Assembly (NCBI RefSeq): GCF_900100765.1
Contig: NZ_FNFO01000011.1
Location: 1 to 64,000, forward strand
Direction of reading: 5' to 3'
DNA from: Catalinimonas alkaloidigena
GTDB taxonomy: Bacteria; Bacteroidota; Bacteroidia; Cytophagales; Flexibacteraceae
DNA: 64,000 bases
In this document: positions 54,205-64,000 of the stretch, piece after piece
Position numbering within the stretch: position 1 is the first letter of the stretch
Layout: each line of letters opens with the position of its first letter
Notes under the pieces: model-generated
The model's input: the letters and a program-made list of their open reading frames with translations, nothing else
What the model was told of the DNA's origin: nothing
Database searches by the model: none
Translations under genes and position numbers: made by a program

Positions 54205-55695
54205 TTACTCTTTGGCAGGCGAGGCTTGACTCACCGGGACTTCTTCATAATCGGCTTTCGGGCTGCCGCAAACGGGACATTGGTACGTGTCGGGTACGTC
54301 GGCGAACGGCGTTTCGGGCGCGATGTGGTTCAGCGCATCGCCGTACGCCTCGTCGTAGATGTTGAGGCAATGGCGACAGCGGAAGCGCTTGTTGAGCGAT
54401 TTTTGCGCTGTGGGGGCTTTTTCTGCCCCTTTTTTGTGCGCGTCGAGCTGGTCATAATACTGCTTGCTGAGTTCGATGAGCAGCGAAGGCACAATCTCTT
54501 TCGACACGCGGCGCGCGTAGGTAAAGTACTCGAACGTATTGGGGTTGAAGTCTCGCGCGTACAGCACGTTGAACGCGTCGGGATCGTCGGGTGTCGCTTT
54601 GGGATTTTTCTCGATCACCACCGAGGTAAAAAGAATTTTGTGTGCCTGCGTTTTGACCGTGAATGTCAGCCCGTACGTGCTGATGTCCTGCTGGTCGAGC
54701 ATCCGCACGAAGTATTTTTTCAGTTCGAGCGCTTCCTGGTTAAGCACCGGCAAATGCCAGTTCAGTTCCAGGGACGAGTGGCGTACGTTGATGCCGTTTT
54801 TCCCCAGCAGTTTCTCCCAGATCACCCGGTCTTTTTCGGCAATGCCCTTGACAATGAACGACTTCCAGGGCGTCAGGCTGAGCTTTCCCACGTTGGTTTC
54901 CAGGCATAAATCGCACAGCGCCCGCATAAAATCGACATAAAAGCAGTTGTTCCGCCAGTACAGGCCCAGCCAGTACTTGCCTTCCTGCGTGCGGTTCATG
55001 CCCTCGTAATAGGGGAACGTCGGCTCCGGAAACGTAAGCGGCGCCTGAATCTCGCGGGTGTTGAACGTCACCTGCTCCTGCACCCGACGGTAAATTTCCG
55101 GGGCGGTAAGCGTCCGGCTGCGCGGGTTGAGTTGCTCAATGGCCCGGGCCACTTTCGCCAGGTCGAAGCCGTAGATCAGGTCCGGGGCGCACCACGGAAG
55201 CGGATCGAGTTCCGAGTAGCGGATGTAGAGGTACCAGTAGTTGTCGAACTGCGAGGCAATGAAGTTGATGTTGCCGGTAAACAGCGGCACCATGCTCTGC
55301 ATCGGGTCCACCAGGTTGATTTTCTCCTGGGGCTGGTAGTCGAACGTGTCGAGCACGTAATGGTAGATGTGCGACGCCAGCCACTTGGTGGAAGGCATCA
55401 CGTCGAGCGAGACGTACGAGCTGACGATGTTCTGGTTGACTTTCTGGTTGAGTTCGTATTCCAGGGGTAGGTCGCGCAGGGCGTCGATTACGCCTTCGGC
55501 TTCCGGGTCGGGTACCGGAAAAAGGATGTCCTGCCGCGAACCGAGGTGGAAATAATCGAACCCGAGGTGCTGGGCCACTTCCAGAATTTTGCGGAAATCG
55601 CCGGGCGAAAGAATGCCTCCCTTTACGAACACGCGCACCAGTTGCTCACTAGTAGTCATACCCGTAAGGTAGATATTTTCTGTCTGAACCATCAT
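54205..55695 (-). CDS. Sulfite/nitrite-reductase-like protein with C-terminal rubredoxin domain
   Basis: A 496-residue protein. Residues about 15-75 (VRVFVKGGILSPGDFRKILEVAQHLGFDYFHLGSRQDILFPV) and 270-330 (LCLETNVGKLSLTPWKSFIVKGI) are the two ferredoxin-like half domains of sulfite/nitrite reductase. The Cys-x5-Cys and Cys-x3-Cys ligands of the siroheme/4Fe-4S site are absent, so it probably does not reduce nitrite. Residues 430-475 form a rubredoxin: FRCRHCLNIYDEAYGD and TYQCPVCGSPKADY with four Cys ligands. It overlaps the upstream nitrate reductase by TAATG and is likely its electron carrier or assembly partner. Confidence 0.82.
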   Translation of the reverse strand: MMVQTENIYLTGMTTSEQLVRVFVKGGILSPGDFRKILEVAQHLGFDYFHLGSRQDILFPVPDPEAEGVIDALRDLPLEYELNQKVNQNIVSSYVSLDVMPSTKWLASHIYHYVLDTFDYQPQEKINLVDPMQSMVPLFTGNINFIASQFDNYWYLYIRYSELDPLPWCAPDLIYGFDLAKVARAIEQLNPRSRTLTAPEIYRRVQEQVTFNTREIQAPLTFPEPTFPYYEGMNRTQEGKYWLGLYWRNNCFYVDFMRALCDLCLETNVGKLSLTPWKSFIVKGIAEKDRVIWEKLLGKNGINVRHSSLELNWHLPVLNQEALELKKYFVRMLDQQDISTYGLTFTVKTQAHKILFTSVVIEKNPKATPDDPDAFNVLYARDFNPNTFEYFTYARRVSKEIVPSLLIELSKQYYDQLDAHKKGAEKAPTAQKSLNKRFRCRHCLNIYDEAYGDALNHIAPETPFADVPDTYQCPVCGSPKADYEEVPVSQASPAKE

Positions 55696-58600
55696 TAGGC
55701 GGTAACGGGCGCTTCGGCCGGAATCCGGGAAGCGAGTTGAGTGTCGAGAATACTTTTGACTTCGGGCTTGCAACTGCCGCAGCCTAGCCCGGCCCCGGTC
55801 TGCTGGCACAGGCTTCGGAATTCGGTACACCCTGCCGCCACGGCCGCTTCGAGGTTGCCCCTGCCGACGTTGCCACACGAGCAGACCAGTTTGCCCAGCA
55901 CGGGACGGCTTTCGCCCCCGCCGCGCAGCAGTTTGTTGCGTTTTTCGGCCAGCTCGGTCTGTTGTTCAATCAGCGCCTTGAACTCCGCAAACTCGGCTTT
56001 GTCGCCCATCAGAATGGCCCCGACCAGCCGGTCGTCGCGGATGATGCACTTCTTGTAATATCCCTGCGAGCGATCCAGCATCACGATTTCTTCATACGCT
56101 TCCCGGTCGCGGTGCGGAATTTCGGGTAGCCCGACGGAGCACAGATCGAGGTTGGAAAACTTGAGGATGTTCATGGGCACGGACCCTTCGTAGAGGCTCA
56201 GCAGATCGCCGGCCAGGAAACGAGCCGCGTTGTCGGCCATCTGTTCGGCGGCGGCCGTAGTGCCGTTCAGTTGCTCGCGGTGCTCGGCCAGCTCGCCCAG
56301 GGCAAAAATGTGCGGGTCGCTGGTCTGGAGGTAGTCGTTGACCTTCACGCCCCGTCCGCAGGCAAGGGCCGCGCCCTGCGCCAGTTCGATGTTCGGGCGG
56401 GTGCCGATGGCGTACACCACGGCGTCGCATTCCAGCTGCTTGCCGCTTTTCAGACGCGTGTGGATCGGCCGGCCCACGCCCTGAGTTTCCACCAGTTGGA
56501 CCTGGTCGTCCACCAACACGCGGACGCCCATGGATTCTACTTTTTCGCGCAGCAGCGTGCTGGCCATTGTGTCGAGCTGCCGTTCCATCAGGCGCGACGA
56601 AAGCTGCACGATGGTGACGTCGGCCTCGATTTCGGTCAGCGATGCGGCCAGTTCCAGCCCCAGCAGTCCCCCGCCCACAATCAGCACCCGCCCCTTGTCG
56701 GGCAGGTAAGCCTTCAGGCGGTCGGCGTTGTCGCGGTTGCGCATGGTGAACAGGCCGGGGAGGTGCATCGGGACATCGGGCGGCACAAAAGCGCGGCTGC
56801 CGGTGGCCAGAATCAACTGGTCGTAGGCATGTTCTTTCCCGTACGAGTCGGTAACGGTTTTGCGGTCGCGGTTCACCCGCACAATCGGATTGGCTACGTG
56901 CAGCGTGGCGTTCAGGGCTTCAAATTCGTCCTGGGTCTTGAACTTCAGCAGATCTTCCCATTGCAGGTGGCTGTTGACGTAGTCGGGGAGGAGCACCCGG
57001 TTGTAGAACGGATGTTCTTCTTTCGAAAAAACGTGCAGTTCGTCTTCCTGATTCAGTTCGCGGTAGGTGTGCAGGAAACGGTACGCCGCCGCACCCGCCC
57101 CAACGATGACGATCTTCTGGCGGGGCTGCCGGTAGCGCTCCACCTCGACGGCCGAAAACTTGAAGTCGGGCTCTTTCGAAACCGGATCGACCACGTTGTT
57201 TGTCAGGTTGTTGGCACGGCCAAAGTCTCGGTTCAGAATCTTGCCCCAGTGCATGGGAAGAAATACGACGCCCCGCTTGATGTCGCCGCTGATGTGCGCA
57301 TGGACCCGTACCTCGCCGCGCAGGTTGCGGACCACAACCGTGTCCCCATGCTGGATGTCGCGTTGGCGGGCGTCGTCCGGATGAATCTCCAGGAATGGCG
57401 TCGGGCGATGTTGGCCCAGCTTGCGGACTTTGCCCGTGCGGGTCATCGTGTGCCACTGGTCACGGACGCGGCCGGTGGTCAGCACCAGCGGAAAGTCGGG
57501 CGAGACGTGTTCGGAAGCATTTTGGGCTCCGCTGGGCAAAATCTGAGCGCGTTGGTTCGGCGTATAAAACTGGCGATCTGTAAACAGCCGGGGCGTGCCG
57601 CCGTGGCCGGGCGAGGGAACCGGCCATTGAACCGATCCTTGCGTTTTCAGCACATCGTAGCTCAGGCCCGAAATGTCGATGTTGGTGCCTTGGGTCAGGG
57701 CACAGTGCTCGGCGTACACGGCCGCCTGATCGGGAAAGTCGAAGCCCGAGTAGCCCATTTTCCGGGCAAAGCGGCAGAAAATCTCCGCATCGGGCAGGGC
57801 TTCGCCGGGCGCCTCGACCACCTTGGGCAGGTAGGTGATGCGCCGCTCCGAGTTGGTCATGGTGCCTTCTTTCTCCAGCCAGCCGGCAGCGGGCAGCACC
57901 AGGTCGGCGTATTTGGCCGTGTCGGAACGGTTCGAAATGTCCTGCACCACCACAAAGCGGGCATTTTTCAGCGCTTCGTCGGCCAGGCGGGCGTCGGGAA
58001 GGCTGACCAGCGGATTGGTACAGACGATCCAGACGGCCTTCATCCGTCCGTCGCGCAGGGCATCGAACATTTGCGTGGCCGTCAGGCCGGGTTTCTCCGA
58101 AATCTTCTCAACGCCCCAGAAGCGCGCCACTTCGTCGCGGTGCGCCGGGTTCAACAGGTTGCGGTGCGCTGCCAGCAGGCTCGACATGCCCCCGACTTCG
58201 CGTCCGCCCATCGCGTTGGGCTGGCCGGTTAGCGAGAACGGCCCGGAGCCGGGCTTGCCGATGTGGCCCGTAATCAGGTTGAGGTTCAGGAGGGCCAGGT
58301 TTTTGTTCACACCCTGCGCACTCTGGTTTAGGCCCATGGCCCACATGGTGATGAATCCTTTCGATTCGGCAATGTAGCGGGCCGCTAGGCGGATGTCTTC
58401 GACGGGCACGTCGCAGTGCGCAGCGGCTTCTTCCAGCGTGGTCTGCATCACTTCGTCGCGGTACGTCTCGAACCCGTCGGTGTGGTGCTGGATGAAGTGG
58501 AGGTCGATGTCGCCGTTCTCGATCAGCGCCCGGCCGATCGCCTGGTACACGATCGTGTCGGTACCCGGCCGGATTTGCAGGTGCAGGTCGGCCATCTGGC

Positions 58601-59240
58601 AGGTTTGCGTCCGGCGCGGATCGACCACGATCATTTTCATAGCCGGATGCTGTTCTTTCCGTTGCTCAATGCGGCGGAACAAAATGGGGTGGCACCACGC
58701 CGGATTCGCGCCCGCAATGAAGAAGCAATCGGCCAGTTCGATGTCCTCATAGCTGATCGGTACCGAATCTTCACCCAGCGCTTTGACGTAGCCCGCCACG
58801 GCCGAGCTCATGCAGAGCCGCGAGTTGGTGTCGATGTTGTTGGTGCCCAGAAACCCTTTCGTCAGTTTATTGACCAGGTAATACTCTTCCGTCAGGCATT
58901 GCCCCGACACGTAGAAACCAACCGAGTCGGGGCCGTACTGCCGGATCAGGGACTTGAACACCGCCGCCGCCCGGGTCAGGGCCGTGTCCCAGCTGACCCG
59001 CTCGAGCGGGTGCTGACGGCTGGCGCGCAGTTGCGGATAAAGCATCCGGTCTTGCTGATCTGACACGACGTAGTGCAGGTTCATCCCTTTGGAGCAAAGC
59101 ATGCCCCGGTTTACGGGATGGTCCGGATCGCCCTTGACGTGCAGTTTGCCCCGGGCATCCTGTTGTACCAGAATACCACAACCTACGCCACAGTAGGAGC
59201 AGGTAGAACGATGGGTGTGAGTCGAATGAGGTACGGCCAT
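55695..59240 (-). CDS. Single-chain assimilatory-type nitrate reductase (Mo domain + FAD/NAD reductase + BFD)
   Basis: A 1181-residue fusion. Residues 1-690 are a molybdopterin oxidoreductase with an N-terminal [4Fe-4S] motif (Cys14, 17, 21, 49, CSYCGVGCG) and the dinucleotide-binding C-terminal domain with HRPTPFLEIHPDDA. About residues 705-1100 are a NirB/rubredoxin-reductase-like FAD/NAD(P)H reductase (KIVIVGAGAAAYRFLHT, RVLIVGGGLLGLELAASL). Near residue 1115 is a BFD [2Fe-2S] domain (VCSCGNV and CGSCKPEV). In other bacteria these parts are separate NasC/NasB-like proteins. It lacks a signal peptide, so it acts in the cytoplasm. The gene is co-directional with narK upstream and overlaps the next gene. 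Confidence 0.88.
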   Translation of the reverse strand: MAVPHSTHTHRSTCSYCGVGCGILVQQDARGKLHVKGDPDHPVNRGMLCSKGMNLHYVVSDQQDRMLYPQLRASRQHPLERVSWDTALTRAAAVFKSLIRQYGPDSVGFYVSGQCLTEEYYLVNKLTKGFLGTNNIDTNSRLCMSSAVAGYVKALGEDSVPISYEDIELADCFFIAGANPAWCHPILFRRIEQRKEQHPAMKMIVVDPRRTQTCQMADLHLQIRPGTDTIVYQAIGRALIENGDIDLHFIQHHTDGFETYRDEVMQTTLEEAAAHCDVPVEDIRLAARYIAESKGFITMWAMGLNQSAQGVNKNLALLNLNLITGHIGKPGSGPFSLTGQPNAMGGREVGGMSSLLAAHRNLLNPAHRDEVARFWGVEKISEKPGLTATQMFDALRDGRMKAVWIVCTNPLVSLPDARLADEALKNARFVVVQDISNRSDTAKYADLVLPAAGWLEKEGTMTNSERRITYLPKVVEAPGEALPDAEIFCRFARKMGYSGFDFPDQAAVYAEHCALTQGTNIDISGLSYDVLKTQGSVQWPVPSPGHGGTPRLFTDRQFYTPNQRAQILPSGAQNASEHVSPDFPLVLTTGRVRDQWHTMTRTGKVRKLGQHRPTPFLEIHPDDARQRDIQHGDTVVVRNLRGEVRVHAHISGDIKRGVVFLPMHWGKILNRDFGRANNLTNNVVDPVSKEPDFKFSAVEVERYRQPRQKIVIVGAGAAAYRFLHTYRELNQEDELHVFSKEEHPFYNRVLLPDYVNSHLQWEDLLKFKTQDEFEALNATLHVANPIVRVNRDRKTVTDSYGKEHAYDQLILATGSRAFVPPDVPMHLPGLFTMRNRDNADRLKAYLPDKGRVLIVGGGLLGLELAASLTEIEADVTIVQLSSRLMERQLDTMASTLLREKVESMGVRVLVDDQVQLVETQGVGRPIHTRLKSGKQLECDAVVYAIGTRPNIELAQGAALACGRGVKVNDYLQTSDPHIFALGELAEHREQLNGTTAAAEQMADNAARFLAGDLLSLYEGSVPMNILKFSNLDLCSVGLPEIPHRDREAYEEIVMLDRSQGYYKKCIIRDDRLVGAILMGDKAEFAEFKALIEQQTELAEKRNKLLRGGGESRPVLGKLVCSCGNVGRGNLEAAVAAGCTEFRSLCQQTGAGLGCGSCKPEVKSILDTQLASRIPAEAPVTA

Positions 59241-59348: not shown

Positions 59349-60698
59349 TTAGGCAGCGAGGGTCGCCTCGACGGGCTTCTGTTCGGCCAGGAGGGCGTCC
59401 ATTTCTTCGCGGGCCCGTGCTTCGTCTTCTTTCGAGAAGCGCACCAGCAAGGTGAACAGGGAGGTGACCGCTACGCAGATGCCCAGAATGGTCAGGGCTT
59501 CCGGGTACGACAGGCTCTCGGACTTGAACAGAAAACCTGCGGCCACCGCGCCGGCGTTGCCACCTGCCCCTACGATGCCGGAAATGGCTCCCAGGGCTTT
59601 GCGGTTTACGAACGGCACCACCGAATACGTAGCGCCTTCCGACATCTGCACGAACAGGCTGAAGACGATCATGGAGATGATGGCGATGGGCAGCACCGTC
59701 ATTTTCGAGAACAGGATCAGGGCCAGACCTTCGATCAGGATCACGACTCCCAGAAAGCCCACGCGCCCTTTCAGACCCCATTTGATGCCGGCTTTGTCGC
59801 CGAAGACGCCGCCCAGCGAGCGGGCAAACAGGTTCATCAGTCCGAACAACCCGGCGATCAGACCGGCGGTTTTTACGTCCAGGTTAAAGTAGTCGTGGTA
59901 GTAGATGGCCGCTACGTTGTTGATCGTCAGTTCCACGCCGAAGCAGGCTCCGTAGACCAGAAATAGCGCCCACACGCGGTAGTCCGAGGCGGCTTTCAGG
60001 AAGCTGCTGCCGCTGTTTTTGCTTTTCAGGGCAAACTCAGGATCGTTCCGCTTCAGGTCGGCCACGTTGCCCTGCGGCAGGTCGGTCGTAAAGCGATAGT
60101 ACAGGAAAGCACACACGAGCAACGCCACCCCGGGCACCACCATCGCCAGCCGCCAGGCCGTGGTGTCGATGAAGCCCAGGCCGACGAAACCGGCGAAAAT
60201 CAACGGCATGACCATCTGTGTTACGCCCCCGCCCAGGTTCCCCCAGCCGGCAGTGGTGGCGTTGGCCGTCCCGACCACGTTGGGCGCGAACATCACCGAC
60301 GTGTGGTACTGCGTGATCACGAACGATGCCCCGATGGCCCCGATGGCCAGGCGAAACAAAAGAAACGTCTCGTAGCTGTTGCTCAGGCCGATCAGAATGA
60401 CCGGAATGGAACCGAGGGCCAGCAGCCAGGTGTAGGCAATCCGCGGGCCGATCTTGTCGCAGAGCCAGCCGATGGCCAGCCGTGCAAATACCGTAATGGC
60501 AACCGACGAGATGATGATGTTACCGATCTGTCCTTTGGTCAGTCCCAGTTCGTCGCGGACCACGGCCATCAGCGGCGCAATACCGAACCAGCCGAAAAAA
60601 CAGAGGAAGAAGGCGAACCAGCTCAGGTGAAAGGCGCGCATCTGCGGCGTTTTCAGGCTGAAAAGGTTGATGGAAGTGGCTTTGGAAGACGATTTCAT
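59349..60698 (-). CDS. narK: NarK/NasA-type MFS nitrate/nitrite transporter
   Basis: A 449-residue protein with twelve hydrophobic segments. The nitrate signature GWGNLGGGVTQMVMPL and the paired RxxxG patterns (LAIGWLCDKIGPR, GGVFGDKAGIKWGLKGR) are in place. It imports nitrate (and possibly exports nitrite) for the downstream reductase. The second start codon, an ATG, is chosen; the longer frame begins with TTG. Porin and reductase genes lie 51 and 108 bp away on the same strand. Confidence 0.9.
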   Translation of the reverse strand: MKSSSKATSINLFSLKTPQMRAFHLSWFAFFLCFFGWFGIAPLMAVVRDELGLTKGQIGNIIISSVAITVFARLAIGWLCDKIGPRIAYTWLLALGSIPVILIGLSNSYETFLLFRLAIGAIGASFVITQYHTSVMFAPNVVGTANATTAGWGNLGGGVTQMVMPLIFAGFVGLGFIDTTAWRLAMVVPGVALLVCAFLYYRFTTDLPQGNVADLKRNDPEFALKSKNSGSSFLKAASDYRVWALFLVYGACFGVELTINNVAAIYYHDYFNLDVKTAGLIAGLFGLMNLFARSLGGVFGDKAGIKWGLKGRVGFLGVVILIEGLALILFSKMTVLPIAIISMIVFSLFVQMSEGATYSVVPFVNRKALGAISGIVGAGGNAGAVAAGFLFKSESLSYPEALTILGICVAVTSLFTLLVRFSKEDEARAREEMDALLAEQKPVEATLAA

Positions 60699-60749
60699 AG
60701 CCTTGACAAGGTTAAGGTTAGACAATTGGATTCGTAAAGGGATGCGTGA

Positions 60750-62051
60750 TTAGTGGGCTGAACTGAACAGCGTGGGTTTGATGGTGAACATGAGCCACGC
60801 CCACTGGTTGCCGCCTGCGCTGGTGGTGCCTTTGAGGGCGTCCATCGAAGCCGAGGAGAAGAGTTGGGAATAGCCGCCTTGCAGGGACACGCCCTCGGTC
60901 AGGGCCAGGTTGAACACTAGGTCGATTTCTTGTCCGAGCGAGCTGGAGAGTTCTTCCAGCGAGCCGTCGCCCGCCGGGCGGGTAACGGTGGCCGCCGCGT
61001 TGAACTGATGCAGTTGCCCCAACAGCACGGCCTTTTTGCCCAGCTTGAATTTGGTCTTGACGTAGAAGTCGGCCAGTCCTTTGTTCTGGTGTCCGTTGCC
61101 TACGTAGAAGTAGTCCATAAAGCCGTAAAACTTGTGGTTTGTGCCGTAGAGCGGGTTAAACGCGCGGTCTTTCGTGTCGGTGGCGTCCGTACCCGAGAGG
61201 TAGTCGACCCCGACGGTGAGGGGCGTAAGGGCCGTTTTGAACGTCGCGTCGAAGGCCGCCAGGTAGGCACTGATGGTCTGGCCACCCGCGTTTTTACCAC
61301 CCTGGTAATAGAGCTCGCCCGTCAAATTGAGGCCCCCCAGTTTGCGCTCGGCGTAGAGGCCGTAGGTCTGCCGGAAGTTTACGCCCGACGTATCGAGGGT
61401 CTGACGGCCGTCGTTGTGAACCAGGAGCGATGCTTTCATCACGTCGTTTTCCTGGTGCAGCCAGAGGTACTGCATGGTTTTGTAGTTGCCACCGGCACGG
61501 GCGTTGGCCAGATCGTAGTAAGTACCCGATAGCTTGCCGGGCTCAAACGCTACCGACTGGTTGTAGGCCGCCCCGAAGTGGGCCTGAAAGCCCGAAGGCG
61601 CTTTGTAGAGGAACAGGGCGGCATCGTGACTGCGACCCTGTTGCGCCCAGTCGAGGTCGCCCAGAAAGCGGGCGTTGTCGTAGTCGAGGGCCTGCCGTCC
61701 GGCGCGTACCGAAAACTGCGGTGTGAAGAAGTACTCGCCCCAGGCTTCGTAGACGTTGAACAGCGCCGGGTCGTCGTTTTTGTAAATCTGGTTGGCCCCA
61801 CCCCAGATGCGGACGTCTTGCAGGGTAAGGCGGAAAGCCATTTTCTCGGCTTTGTAGCCGGCGTACAGGCGGGAGCGCTGCTCTACGAAAAAAGCCGGAT
61901 CGGTCGCCAGCGTGTTCGGGGATTTAAAGCCGTTGCGGAATTCGGCCCGGGGGCGAACTTCCCCCTGTAGCGTGAACTGCGCGAAGGTCTCTGTGGTACC
62001 TGCAAAAGACAGTACGGAGAGGAGGAGCACGCGTAAGTAGTACTGTTTCAT
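60750..62051 (-). CDS. Alginate-export-type outer membrane porin
   Basis: A 433-residue protein with a signal peptide (LLSVLSFAGTTETFAQ). The mature part is a series of amphipathic beta-strands (LQGEVRPRAEFRNGF, RLYAGYKAEKMAFRLTLQDV, FFTPQFSVRAGRQALDYD and on), typical of alginate_exp/OprD-like barrels of Bacteroidota. It probably admits nitrate through the outer membrane. It is the first gene of the operon, preceded by the palindrome-bearing regulatory region. Confidence 0.82.
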   Translation of the reverse strand: MKQYYLRVLLLSVLSFAGTTETFAQFTLQGEVRPRAEFRNGFKSPNTLATDPAFFVEQRSRLYAGYKAEKMAFRLTLQDVRIWGGANQIYKNDDPALFNVYEAWGEYFFTPQFSVRAGRQALDYDNARFLGDLDWAQQGRSHDAALFLYKAPSGFQAHFGAAYNQSVAFEPGKLSGTYYDLANARAGGNYKTMQYLWLHQENDVMKASLLVHNDGRQTLDTSGVNFRQTYGLYAERKLGGLNLTGELYYQGGKNAGGQTISAYLAAFDATFKTALTPLTVGVDYLSGTDATDTKDRAFNPLYGTNHKFYGFMDYFYVGNGHQNKGLADFYVKTKFKLGKKAVLLGQLHQFNAAATVTRPAGDGSLEELSSSLGQEIDLVFNLALTEGVSLQGGYSQLFSSASMDALKGTTSAGGNQWAWLMFTIKPTLFSSAH

Positions 62052-62354: not shown

Positions 62355-63062
62355 TCAGGCGTGCAGGGCTTGTTGCAGACTGGGCTCTTCTTCGATCTTC
62401 TTTAACAGTTCTACAACGTTGCTGACTTCCAGCTTTTTCATGATGTTGAAGCGGTGCGTTTCGATGGTGCGGACGCTCTTGCCAAACTGCGCGGCAATTT
62501 CCTTGTTGGGCAACCCTTCCGTGATCAGCCGCAAAATTTCGCGTTCGCGTTTCGTCAGCGTATAGTCGTTGCCGCTCGGCGTGCTCTCGGTGTGTGACGA
62601 CGGTGCGGTGTCGGCCGCGGCCGGACCGTCCTGCCGGTGATTCAGGTAGCGGTTCACAAACACCCGCGAAATGTCGCCGCTGAAATACTTGCCTCCGCTG
62701 TGGACCGTCCGGACCGCCTTGAGGAACTCTTCGCGGCTGGAGCCCTTTAGCAGGTAGCCGTGGGCGCCGTTGTCGACCGATTGCAGAATGTACTCGTCGT
62801 CGTCGTGCATCGAAAGGACCAGCACCCGCGTGCGGGGTGAGTATTCCGGCAGGCGGCGGGTCGCCTCCAAGCCGTTCAGTTCCGGCATCCTGATGTCGAC
62901 AATCAGAAGGTCGGGCCGGTAGTCGCGGGCCATTTCCAGCGCCTGCTGTCCGTTGGCCGCTTCGGCCACTACTTTGATGTCGCCTTCGCTTTCCAGCAGC
63001 GAGCGGATGCCCGTTCGTACGAGGCTGTGGTCGTCGGCTAAAATGACATTAATAGGATTCAT
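62355..63062 (-). CDS. NarL/FixJ-type response regulator
   Basis: A 235-residue protein. The receiver domain has INVILADDHSLVRTGI, the phospho-acceptor Asp in LLIVDIRMPELNG, and a Lys in HGYLLKGSSREEF. The LuxR-type HTH is LTKREREILRLITEGLPNKEIA and SVRTIETHRFNIMKKL. The first ATG of the conserved receiver is used, inside the last codons of the kinase gene (14-bp overlap). It probably controls the adjacent nitrate operon through the TACGTA sites. Confidence 0.92.
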   Translation of the reverse strand: MNPINVILADDHSLVRTGIRSLLESEGDIKVVAEAANGQQALEMARDYRPDLLIVDIRMPELNGLEATRRLPEYSPRTRVLVLSMHDDDEYILQSVDNGAHGYLLKGSSREEFLKAVRTVHSGGKYFSGDISRVFVNRYLNHRQDGPAAADTAPSSHTESTPSGNDYTLTKREREILRLITEGLPNKEIAAQFGKSVRTIETHRFNIMKKLEVSNVVELLKKIEEEPSLQQALHA

Positions 63063-64000
63063 ATACTTTGTTGTGGTGGATGGGAATGTGGATGTTGATG
63101 CGCGTGCCCTGCCCCGGCGTCGAGTTGATGTCGAGCTGGGCGTTGATGAACAGCGCGCGTTCCTGCATGTTGAAAATACCTTGTCCGGTGCCGTTGTCGT
63201 GAATCTCCCGGATCGACTGTTGCGGATCGAACCCCACGCCATTGTCGCTGATCGTGACGTTCAGCACGTCGAAGTTGTGGCTGAACTCCACCCGAATCTC
63301 GTCGGCTTGTGCGTACTTAATCGCGTTGTTCACCGCCTCCTGAATCATCCGGTACAAATTGGTCTCCACGCTCTTTTCTAAACGATTCAGAAAGCCGGTC
63401 TTGTTCTCGAACACGATGTTTTTATCGGAAAGACGGCTCATTTCCGCACAGTATTTCTTCGTAACCGGCACAATGCCGTAATCGCTGAGCGAACTGGGCG
63501 TCAGGTTGAACGAAATGCGCCGGATTTCTTGGAGGACCTGATTCATGATGTGCTTCACTTCCTGGACGTTATGCGGCAGGTAGCGGCTCTTTTGAGGATC
63601 TTCCAGGGTCTCGACCCGGTAGCGCAGGGCGGTCAGCAGTTGGCCGATGCCGTCGTGGAGGTCGCGGGCCAGCCGTCGCCGTTCCTCTTCTTGCCCTTCC
63701 AGAATCAGAATGGAGCGGAAGCGTTGTTCCTTCAATTTCTTTTCGATGCGCTCGCGCGTAATTTCCTGCGACCGCGCCCGGGCCTCTTTCTCGTCGGTAC
63801 GGTTGGTGCCGACCAGCAGCAGTTGCTGCGTCTGGCCGTTGCGGTGCAACAGCGGCACTACGTAGAGGTCGAGCCAGACAAAATCGCCGCTTTCGGACGT
63901 CACCTGCACTTCGCCCGTCCAGGGATCGCCCACGCTGCTGAGCTGGCGGATGCGGTGCACATTTTCCGGGGCGTACCCTTCTTCGGTCAGCCAGTCGAAC
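63049..64000 (-). CDS. PAS-domain HisKA_3 sensor kinase, partial at window edge
   Basis: The 5' end lies outside the window. The visible part has the end of a PAS domain (FDWLTEEGYAPENVHRIRQ, then GEVQVTSESGDFVWLDLYVVPL), a helix region, the HisKA_3 motif RRRLARDLHDGIGQLLTALRY with the phospho-His, and the ATPase domain with VNNAIKYAQADEIRVEF and DNGVGFDP. It overlaps the response regulator by 14 bp and is its partner. NarX/NarQ-type sensing is inferred from the downstream nitrate operon, since no P-box is seen in the visible portion. Confidence 0.88.
   Translation of the reverse strand, partial: FDWLTEEGYAPENVHRIRQLSSVGDPWTGEVQVTSESGDFVWLDLYVVPLLHRNGQTQQLLLVGTNRTDEKEARARSQEITRERIEKKLKEQRFRSILILEGQEEERRRLARDLHDGIGQLLTALRYRVETLEDPQKSRYLPHNVQEVKHIMNQVLQEIRRISFNLTPSSLSDYGIVPVTKKYCAEMSRLSDKNIVFENKTGFLNRLEKSVETNLYRMIQEAVNNAIKYAQADEIRVEFSHNFDVLNVTISDNGVGFDPQQSIREIHDNGTGQGIFNMQERALFINAQLDINSTPGQGTRINIHIPIHHNKVYESY

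Follow-up and report, generated by a model that had tools for sequence, protein, structure and literature searches.

The window analysed here is a stretch of 64,000 nucleotides at the start of contig NZ_FNFO01000011.1 of Catalinimonas alkaloidigena (RefSeq assembly GCF_900100765.1). Towards its end lies a gene for a protein of 495 amino acids (P0001), in which a body with the predicted fold of sulfite and nitrite reductases (SiR/NiR), lacking the cysteine ligands of siroheme and the 4Fe-4S cluster, is followed by a rubredoxin. The genes and features of the locus are listed below, each with its basis in brackets.

54205..55695, reverse strand: rubredoxin-fused SiR/NiR-fold protein without cofactor ligands, 495 aa, P0001 (open reading frame, Pfam, predicted fold)
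54238..54390, reverse strand: rubredoxin domain, residues 436-486, with Cys 440, 443, 473 and 476 (Pfam, fold match, conservation)
54436..54798, reverse strand: residues 300-420, a predicted second NIR_SIR remnant that lacks the C-x5-C / C-x3-C ligand motif (alignments, fold match)
54826..55014, reverse strand: second ferredoxin-like half domain, residues 228-290, the most conserved part with a mean entropy of 0.98 bits (genome-wide Pfam search, second of two PF03460 stretches)
54904..54915, reverse strand: CxxC, C261 and C264 (conservation, C261 being kept in 110 and C264 in 109 of 111 homologs)
55051..55470, reverse strand: residues 76-215, a predicted first NIR_SIR remnant with approximate boundaries and with invariant N89, N127, Q133 and N144 (fold match to NirA/SiR, conservation)
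55471..55644, reverse strand: residues 18-75, the first of two ferredoxin-like half domains (NIR_SIR_ferr), in which R54-Q55 is invariant (Pfam PF03460, conservation)
55695..59240, reverse strand: partner enzyme of 1181 aa, consisting of a MopB catalytic part, a NirB-type FAD/NAD(H) flavoprotein and a BFD [2Fe-2S] domain, a probable assimilatory nitrate reductase (Pfam, NCBIfam, context)
59349..60725, reverse strand: MFS transporter, by context a probable nitrate/nitrite transporter (Pfam MFS_1; many of 80 loci have a similar gene upstream of the partner)
60750..62051, reverse strand: outer-membrane porin-like protein, Alginate_exp (Pfam)
62355..63242, reverse strand: LuxR-type response regulator (reading of the neighbourhood)

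The gene starts at an ATG (55695-55693) whose A is also the last base of the TAA stop codon of the upstream 1181-residue reading frame (TAATG), and the overlap with a nitrate reductase gene given in a preliminary description of this DNA is thus borne out by the coordinates of the two frames, which share the single base 55695. At E ≤ 1 the protein matches the Pfam family NIR_SIR_ferr in two stretches (E 5.5e-15) and Rubredoxin at residues 437-482 (E 1.6e-15), the latter family (PF00301) scoring 57.3 bits against a cut-off of 23. The complete four-cysteine rubredoxin C-terminus of that description is likewise found, with two CxxC loops and a rubredoxin fold: in the structural model, residues 435-486 superpose on Desulfovibrio gigas rubredoxin (1rdg) with a Z of 10.1, an rmsd of 0.7 Å and 40% identity. 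The NCBIfam rubredoxin model reaches 51.7 bits, below its cut-off of 90. Across 111 aligned homologs all four cysteines are present in 110, the exception (L137, from genome G126) ending before the rubredoxin, and from these ligands the domain would be expected to bind one redox-active iron. The domain thus shares its four cysteines with PF00301 and differs in that some 430 residues of body are fused to it. A rival rubredoxin encoded elsewhere in the same genome was looked for and rejected, the 495-residue protein being the sole PF00301 match at E ≤ 0.001.

For the first ca 420 residues an SiR/NiR fold is predicted, closest to that of NirA from Mycobacterium tuberculosis. In an AlphaFold2 model of the full-length protein, built from a 34-sequence alignment (pLDDT 80, pTM 0.60), residues 14-421 superpose on NirA (1zj8) over 373 residues with a Z of 22.9, an rmsd of 6.0 Å and 13% identity, other SiR/NiR chains lying within about 3 Z of this match. 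A model of the body from 45 sequences (pLDDT 91, pTM 0.86) aligns with NirA through residues 1-319 (278 residues, 3.1 Å, Z 21.9), while its residues 291-405 taken on their own match a DsrB domain (2v4j, Z 9.1) and IspG (Z 8.0); over the whole length of this model the Foldseek rmsd is 16 Å. Since the placement of the last domain differs between the two models, its orientation is unsure. NirA and CysI are ferredoxin- or NADPH-linked siroheme nitrite and sulfite reductases, and their hallmark, a two-lobed fold with two ferredoxin-like half domains of the NIR_SIR_ferr type, is seen in the predicted models. In other words, the two half domains recognised in the preliminary description stand, but they appear to belong to a whole SiR/NiR architecture, with remnants of both NIR_SIR domains also predicted. 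The protein differs from NirA and CysI in being only about 13% identical, in lacking the 4Fe-4S/siroheme cysteine motif, in its C-terminal rubredoxin, and in a CxxC at positions 261 and 264 of the second half domain, which the earlier description did not mention.

The loss of the siroheme and 4Fe-4S cysteines, which that description had read from the one protein and proposed to follow through its homologs and the two Pfam families, extends to all the homologs. A C-x5-C or C-x3-C pair within the ligand region, residues 296-360, occurs in none of the 111 aligned homologs. The 4Fe-4S/siroheme domain PF01077 is absent from the seven Pfam families listed at E ≤ 1 for the 495-residue protein; among 45 representative bodies, all of which match NIR_SIR_ferr, it is listed for none at E ≤ 0.01. 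In both searches HMMER filters may hide weak matches. The cysteine motif is present in five NirA proteins (see below) and in a canonical siroheme reductase encoded on another contig of the C. alkaloidigena genome. From these comparisons we infer that siroheme binding has been lost. The separate contig carrying that reductase (L010:163-4372; Pfam) also holds open reading frames named by eye as SUMT, siroheme-synthase-like and PAPS-reductase-like.

Residue-level comparison of the body with active reductases gives leads rather than proof. An hhalign comparison with NirA has a probability of 5.5%, the ligand loops being missing in this weak alignment, and a second run (16.6%) matched the query's first half to the template's second half. 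A profile search with the body finds SiRHP at E 0.45, behind Cas2 at E 0.18. In this weak SiRHP alignment, R54-Q55 coincides with R-Q in the LTNRQ motif, N89 with the second asparagine of NRN and N144 with that of MNF; R83 of SiRHP pairs with R21, a position occupied by R or K in 109 of 111 homologs, R153 (the R of NRN) pairs with Q88, where R occurs in 0 of 111, and the stretch with K215 and K217 is unaligned. These four SiRHP residues, R83, R153, K215 and K217, we take to be the anion-binding residues of the siroheme site; a literature search on their roles returned no match. Regarding ancestry, the NCBIfam model for CobG (precorrin-3B synthase) gives the protein 19.9 bits against a cut-off of 234.8, and weak matches (E ≤ 0.1) among the 45 bodies are to CobG in 24, NirA in 14, PRK13504 in nine and CysI in seven. 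Sequence comparison does not favour NirA over CobG or CysI, and residue-level descent from NirA was accordingly set aside.

The protein belongs to a conserved Bacteroidota family. The genome collection has 458 stretches that match the pattern, and 448 of them encode relatives, such that the resemblance is more than chance. The best 80 of these 448 loci were kept; their record titles name Bacteroidota taxa, and no homolog from outside the phylum is among them. A plasmid search returned five matches outside Bacteroidota, all confined to the rubredoxin part. The 111 distinct homologs aligned (the window plus 116 loci, minus six duplicates) range in identity down to about 32%, and still 24 columns are invariant, all within the body: G27, G52, R54, Q55, N89, S93, W105, N127, Q133, G141, N144, W154, P228, E231, G232, W242, G244, Y246, R248, T275, K278, E310, K326 and T340. 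Half of these (R54, Q55, N89, N127, Q133, N144, E231, R248, K278, E310, K326 and T340) are polar or charged. Mean column entropy is similar in the body segments (0.98-1.79 bits) and the rubredoxin (1.47 bits). The idea of the preliminary description that an enzyme fold was kept as a scaffold is therefore upheld as to the predicted fold and weakened as to the scaffold: 24 invariant residues and a near-invariant CxxC make a passive role unlikely. Conservation of this strength suggests that the body does more than hold the rubredoxin, and the invariant polar residues and the CxxC would leave room for a ligand within it.

The nature of the neighbouring enzyme is important to any reading of the protein. 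Pfam assigns to it a molybdopterin enzyme with a 4Fe-4S motif, a flavoprotein (PF07992), a rubredoxin-reductase C-terminal domain (PF18267) and BFD. Its best NCBIfam model, FdhA, reaches 588.8 bits against a cut-off of 666 and the second, NasC, 531 bits against 1100, and because both fall below their cut-offs the name nitrate reductase is given by context. This context consists of the MFS transporter and porin, the LuxR-type regulator and its PilJ-type sensor kinase, the gene of the latter extending beyond the end of the window and being followed there by nirD and nirB, and published Bacteroidota gene sets annotated alike, in which, in Aquirufa, a rubredoxin is named together with nitrate/nitrite genes (parts of PMC12528234 and PMC10821818). 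The kinase and regulator genes (window 62355-64000 together with L009:3049-4893) stand beside the operon, and the pair resembles the Bacteroidetes narHK/narRR described in a section of PMC8199190. The four BFD cysteines are intact in all 43 carrier sequences, and from its motifs the electron route of the enzyme, from NADH through FAD, BFD and 4Fe-4S to Mo, is apparently complete.

An open reading frame for this MopB-flavoprotein lies directly upstream of the gene, on the same strand, in 80 of 80 loci, some of these frames being cut by contig ends. With the first ATG taken as the start, stop and start overlap by one base in 27 loci and by four bases in 21 (48 of 80). In 30 of 30 carrier genomes from the samples described below, protein and partner are encoded on the same contig and strand with match starts less than 4.5 kb apart. 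The coupling to nitrate reductase claimed in the preliminary description thus holds for the MopB enzyme, while the word nitrate is contributed by context. In two of the 30 carriers a Nitr_red_assoc gene (PF09655, presumably NarM-like) stands between the nitrate reductase and the gene (L142:6799-7302 and G544:C1:346815-347249). The family occurs in one of 14 controls (Synechococcus) and is not among the Pfam matches of the 495-residue protein at E ≤ 1; as these two genomes carry both, the protein does not replace Nitr_red_assoc there. In another genome (G190) a 269-residue open reading frame without a Pfam match at E ≤ 1e-4 occupies this position (L138:9627-10433).

The presence of the gene was followed in two samples. 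Among 296 genomes of the phylum, with the partner defined by at least 55% identity and an open frame of at least 1169 aa and NirB by E ≤ 1e-30, 23 have a full-length homolog or body, 27 the fused partner and 22 NirB, and all 22 NirB genomes are also in the protein and partner lists; 72 of the 95 protein matches tallied span the rubredoxin region only. Among 326 genomes of the class (protein E ≤ 1e-20, partner E ≤ 1e-180, NirB E ≤ 1e-30) the protein is found in 20 and partner and NirB in 19 each, the 19 being identical genomes. The samples overlap by 11 carriers, giving 30 distinct genomes with protein, partner and NirB, and no loss of the gene is seen among the sampled genomes that have both partner and NirB. 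NirB lies on another contig in two carriers (G190 and G154) and more than 20 kb away in G088. The odd genome in both samples is G126, in which partner and NirB are below the thresholds used and the body stands as an orphan without rubredoxin (L137:45-1553). This copy is near a contig start and the assembly may be at fault; a rubredoxin frameshifted away was sought in the three forward frames just past the stop, and none was seen.

Five genomes (G219, G008, G050, G155 and G179) have the partner without the protein or NirB. The operons of all five contain a NirA-type reductase with the cysteine motif and, between NirA and the nitrate reductase, a FAD/NAD reductase of 440-476 aa resembling the C-terminus of CysJ (L132-L136), which in L133, where Pfam was applied, has no flavodoxin domain, similar frames being present in the others. 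Since the gene goes with NirB-type and not with NirA-type operons, the partner enzyme as such does not need the protein in every lineage. In a tree of 50 partner sequences the 43 from carriers form one clade (97/100) with the five exceptions outside, although the rooting is provisional, given a very remote outgroup and a deviating composition in the rows of the five exceptions. Taken at face value, this points to a single gain of the protein, together with the replacement of NirA by NirB. That it descends from NirA in particular is an attractive but unproven reading of the operon swap and the tree, to which the sequence comparisons lend no support.

Overall, nitrate reductase probably has in this protein a hitherto overlooked partner, either in passing electrons or in assembly. 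More specifically, the reading that we tentatively favour, without holding it as established, makes the protein an obligate redox subunit of the NADH-type assimilatory nitrate reductase encoded beside it. The two-lobed body, devoid of siroheme and 4Fe-4S ligands, would dock on the flavoprotein/BFD part of the partner, and the rubredoxin would serve as an electron relay, its likeliest place being between the [2Fe-2S] centre of BFD and the molybdenum domain, with the direction of flow conjectural; alternatively, it might share electrons between nitrate reductase and NirBD, as proposed for NasG in Paracoccus. The gene may have descended from a NirA-like one when NirBD took over nitrite reduction. 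This redox role is favoured by the unbroken adjacency of the two genes and the frequency with which they overlap, by their pairing in every carrier while NirB lies on another contig in some, by the sole rubredoxin-less copy coming from a genome in which no partner or NirB was found, and by a partner with a flavoprotein of the NirB/rubredoxin-reductase type and intact BFD cysteines. There are also precedents. The NasG ferredoxin of Paracoccus and the Flp flavoprotein of Bradyrhizobium, encoded in nas operons, are proposed in the relevant part of PMC4724949 as electron carriers to NasC; being a ferredoxin and a flavoprotein, they are likened to the present protein by their proposed role in assimilatory nitrate reductase alone. 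Class III hybrid cluster proteins also fuse a rubredoxin, there N-terminal, to a reductase of nitrogen oxides, and differ in having another body and an active metal cluster (a section of PMC10502027). The same source gives rubredoxin potentials of -50 to +50 mV, against -400 to -300 mV for a [4Fe-4S] cluster, and so high a potential suits an acceptor on the nitrate side rather than the siroheme side.

The redox role is weakened by the partner, which with its FAD, BFD and 4Fe-4S motifs looks complete without a rubredoxin, such that the latter must be an extra or alternative relay, a NasG-like splitter of electrons between nitrate and nitrite, or an aid to maturation; the five genomes with partner and no gene further indicate that the protein is not intrinsically needed. 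Also counting against it are the strong conservation of the body, which suggests more than a rubredoxin holder, and the fact that within the carriers the gene follows NirB as exactly as it follows the partner. A fuller form of this proposal is more doubtful still: that a nitrite reductase without siroheme and Fe-S cluster became a new redox subunit once in Bacteroidota, as NirBD replaced NirA, with no loss since among the sampled carriers of enzyme and NirB, its rubredoxin linking it to the NADH-driven nitrate reductase and its emptied cavity (invariant R54, Q55, N89, N144, K278 and E310, and the new CxxC thiol pair) holding some other ligand or cofactor.

It is possible, if on balance unlikely, that the protein is instead a maturation factor, which would help nitrate reductase (or NirB) to receive its Fe-S or molybdenum cofactor or to keep it protected; the rubredoxin would be a redox helper that tolerates oxygen, and the CxxC would take part in reactions of clusters or thiols. 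The strict pairing of the two genes and their overlap are consistent with this, as is a CxxC outside the rubredoxin; the PF09655 gene found between the two in two of 30 carriers suggests that accessory proteins cluster here, although the co-occurrence in those genomes argues against a simple substitute. A rubredoxin needed for the accumulation of photosystem II is described in PMC3772215, which lends weight to maturation and takes some from electron relay. Against a maturation factor are the existence of partners without the protein and the lack of homology to any known maturation factor above a Pfam cut-off.

An active enzyme in its own right is distinctly improbable. The old siroheme cavity would then hold another cofactor or substrate, and the protein would reduce nitrite, NO or hydroxylamine, or catalyse thiol reactions, with electrons arriving through its rubredoxin from the adjacent domain resembling NADH:rubredoxin reductase. 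We know of no such activity for an SiR/NiR fold without siroheme. The number of invariant body residues, half of them polar or charged, and the weak placement of R54/Q55, N89 and N144 on SiR motif positions argue for it, but ligand loops are absent in the alignments, one of them weak, and the cavity is a putative ligand site only. Published parallels are the fusion of rubredoxin to hydroxylamine reductase (PMC10502027, in part) and, in the part of PMC4724949 concerned, the ability of NasC to make NO and a nas operon with NO detoxification.

Nor is it at all likely that the protein works on the nitrite side, channelling nitrite or electrons with NirBD, and stands beside nitrate reductase merely through a shared operon. 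Its presence tracks NirB as exactly as it tracks the partner, the three-gene genomes coinciding with the NirB genomes (22 of 22 and 19 of 19), which is compatible with such a role, and the five genomes with NirA in place of NirB are without it. It is the nitrate reductase, however, that the gene adjoins in all 30 carriers, NirB being elsewhere in some, and a siroheme/4Fe-4S acceptor would call for a lower potential than rubredoxins have (PMC10502027, same section). Finally, that the protein is a decaying nitrite reductase carried along with the operon, as the loss of all four ligand cysteines and the one orphan copy might hint, is scarcely credible, a relic being rejected, like a frameshift or chance reading, in view of conservation across the 111 homologs (24 invariant residues, rubredoxin cysteines in all but one, identities down to about 32%) and of its place beside the partner in every carrier.

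What was already known of the family is its rubredoxin label. Of four full-length plasmid homologs, two are labelled rubredoxin, one has no feature under the match and one is in an unannotated record. In Bacteroidetes nitrate loci, 'rub, rubredoxin' is listed among genes of unclear involvement in the Fig. 3 legend of PMC8199190, and by its description this gene is very probably the present family. No account of the SiR/NiR body was found in open-licence papers, and no described function in literature searches. What is new is a known fold and a known domain in a ligand-stripped, obligately paired form. A subunit known to annotators simply as 'rubredoxin' seems to take part in the assimilatory reduction of nitrate by Bacteroidota; should it prove to be required, its gene ought to be considered when nitrate use is predicted for these bacteria. 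It would also illustrate clearly how a redox enzyme with a cofactor can become a partner that has lost this cofactor and bears a different metal domain.
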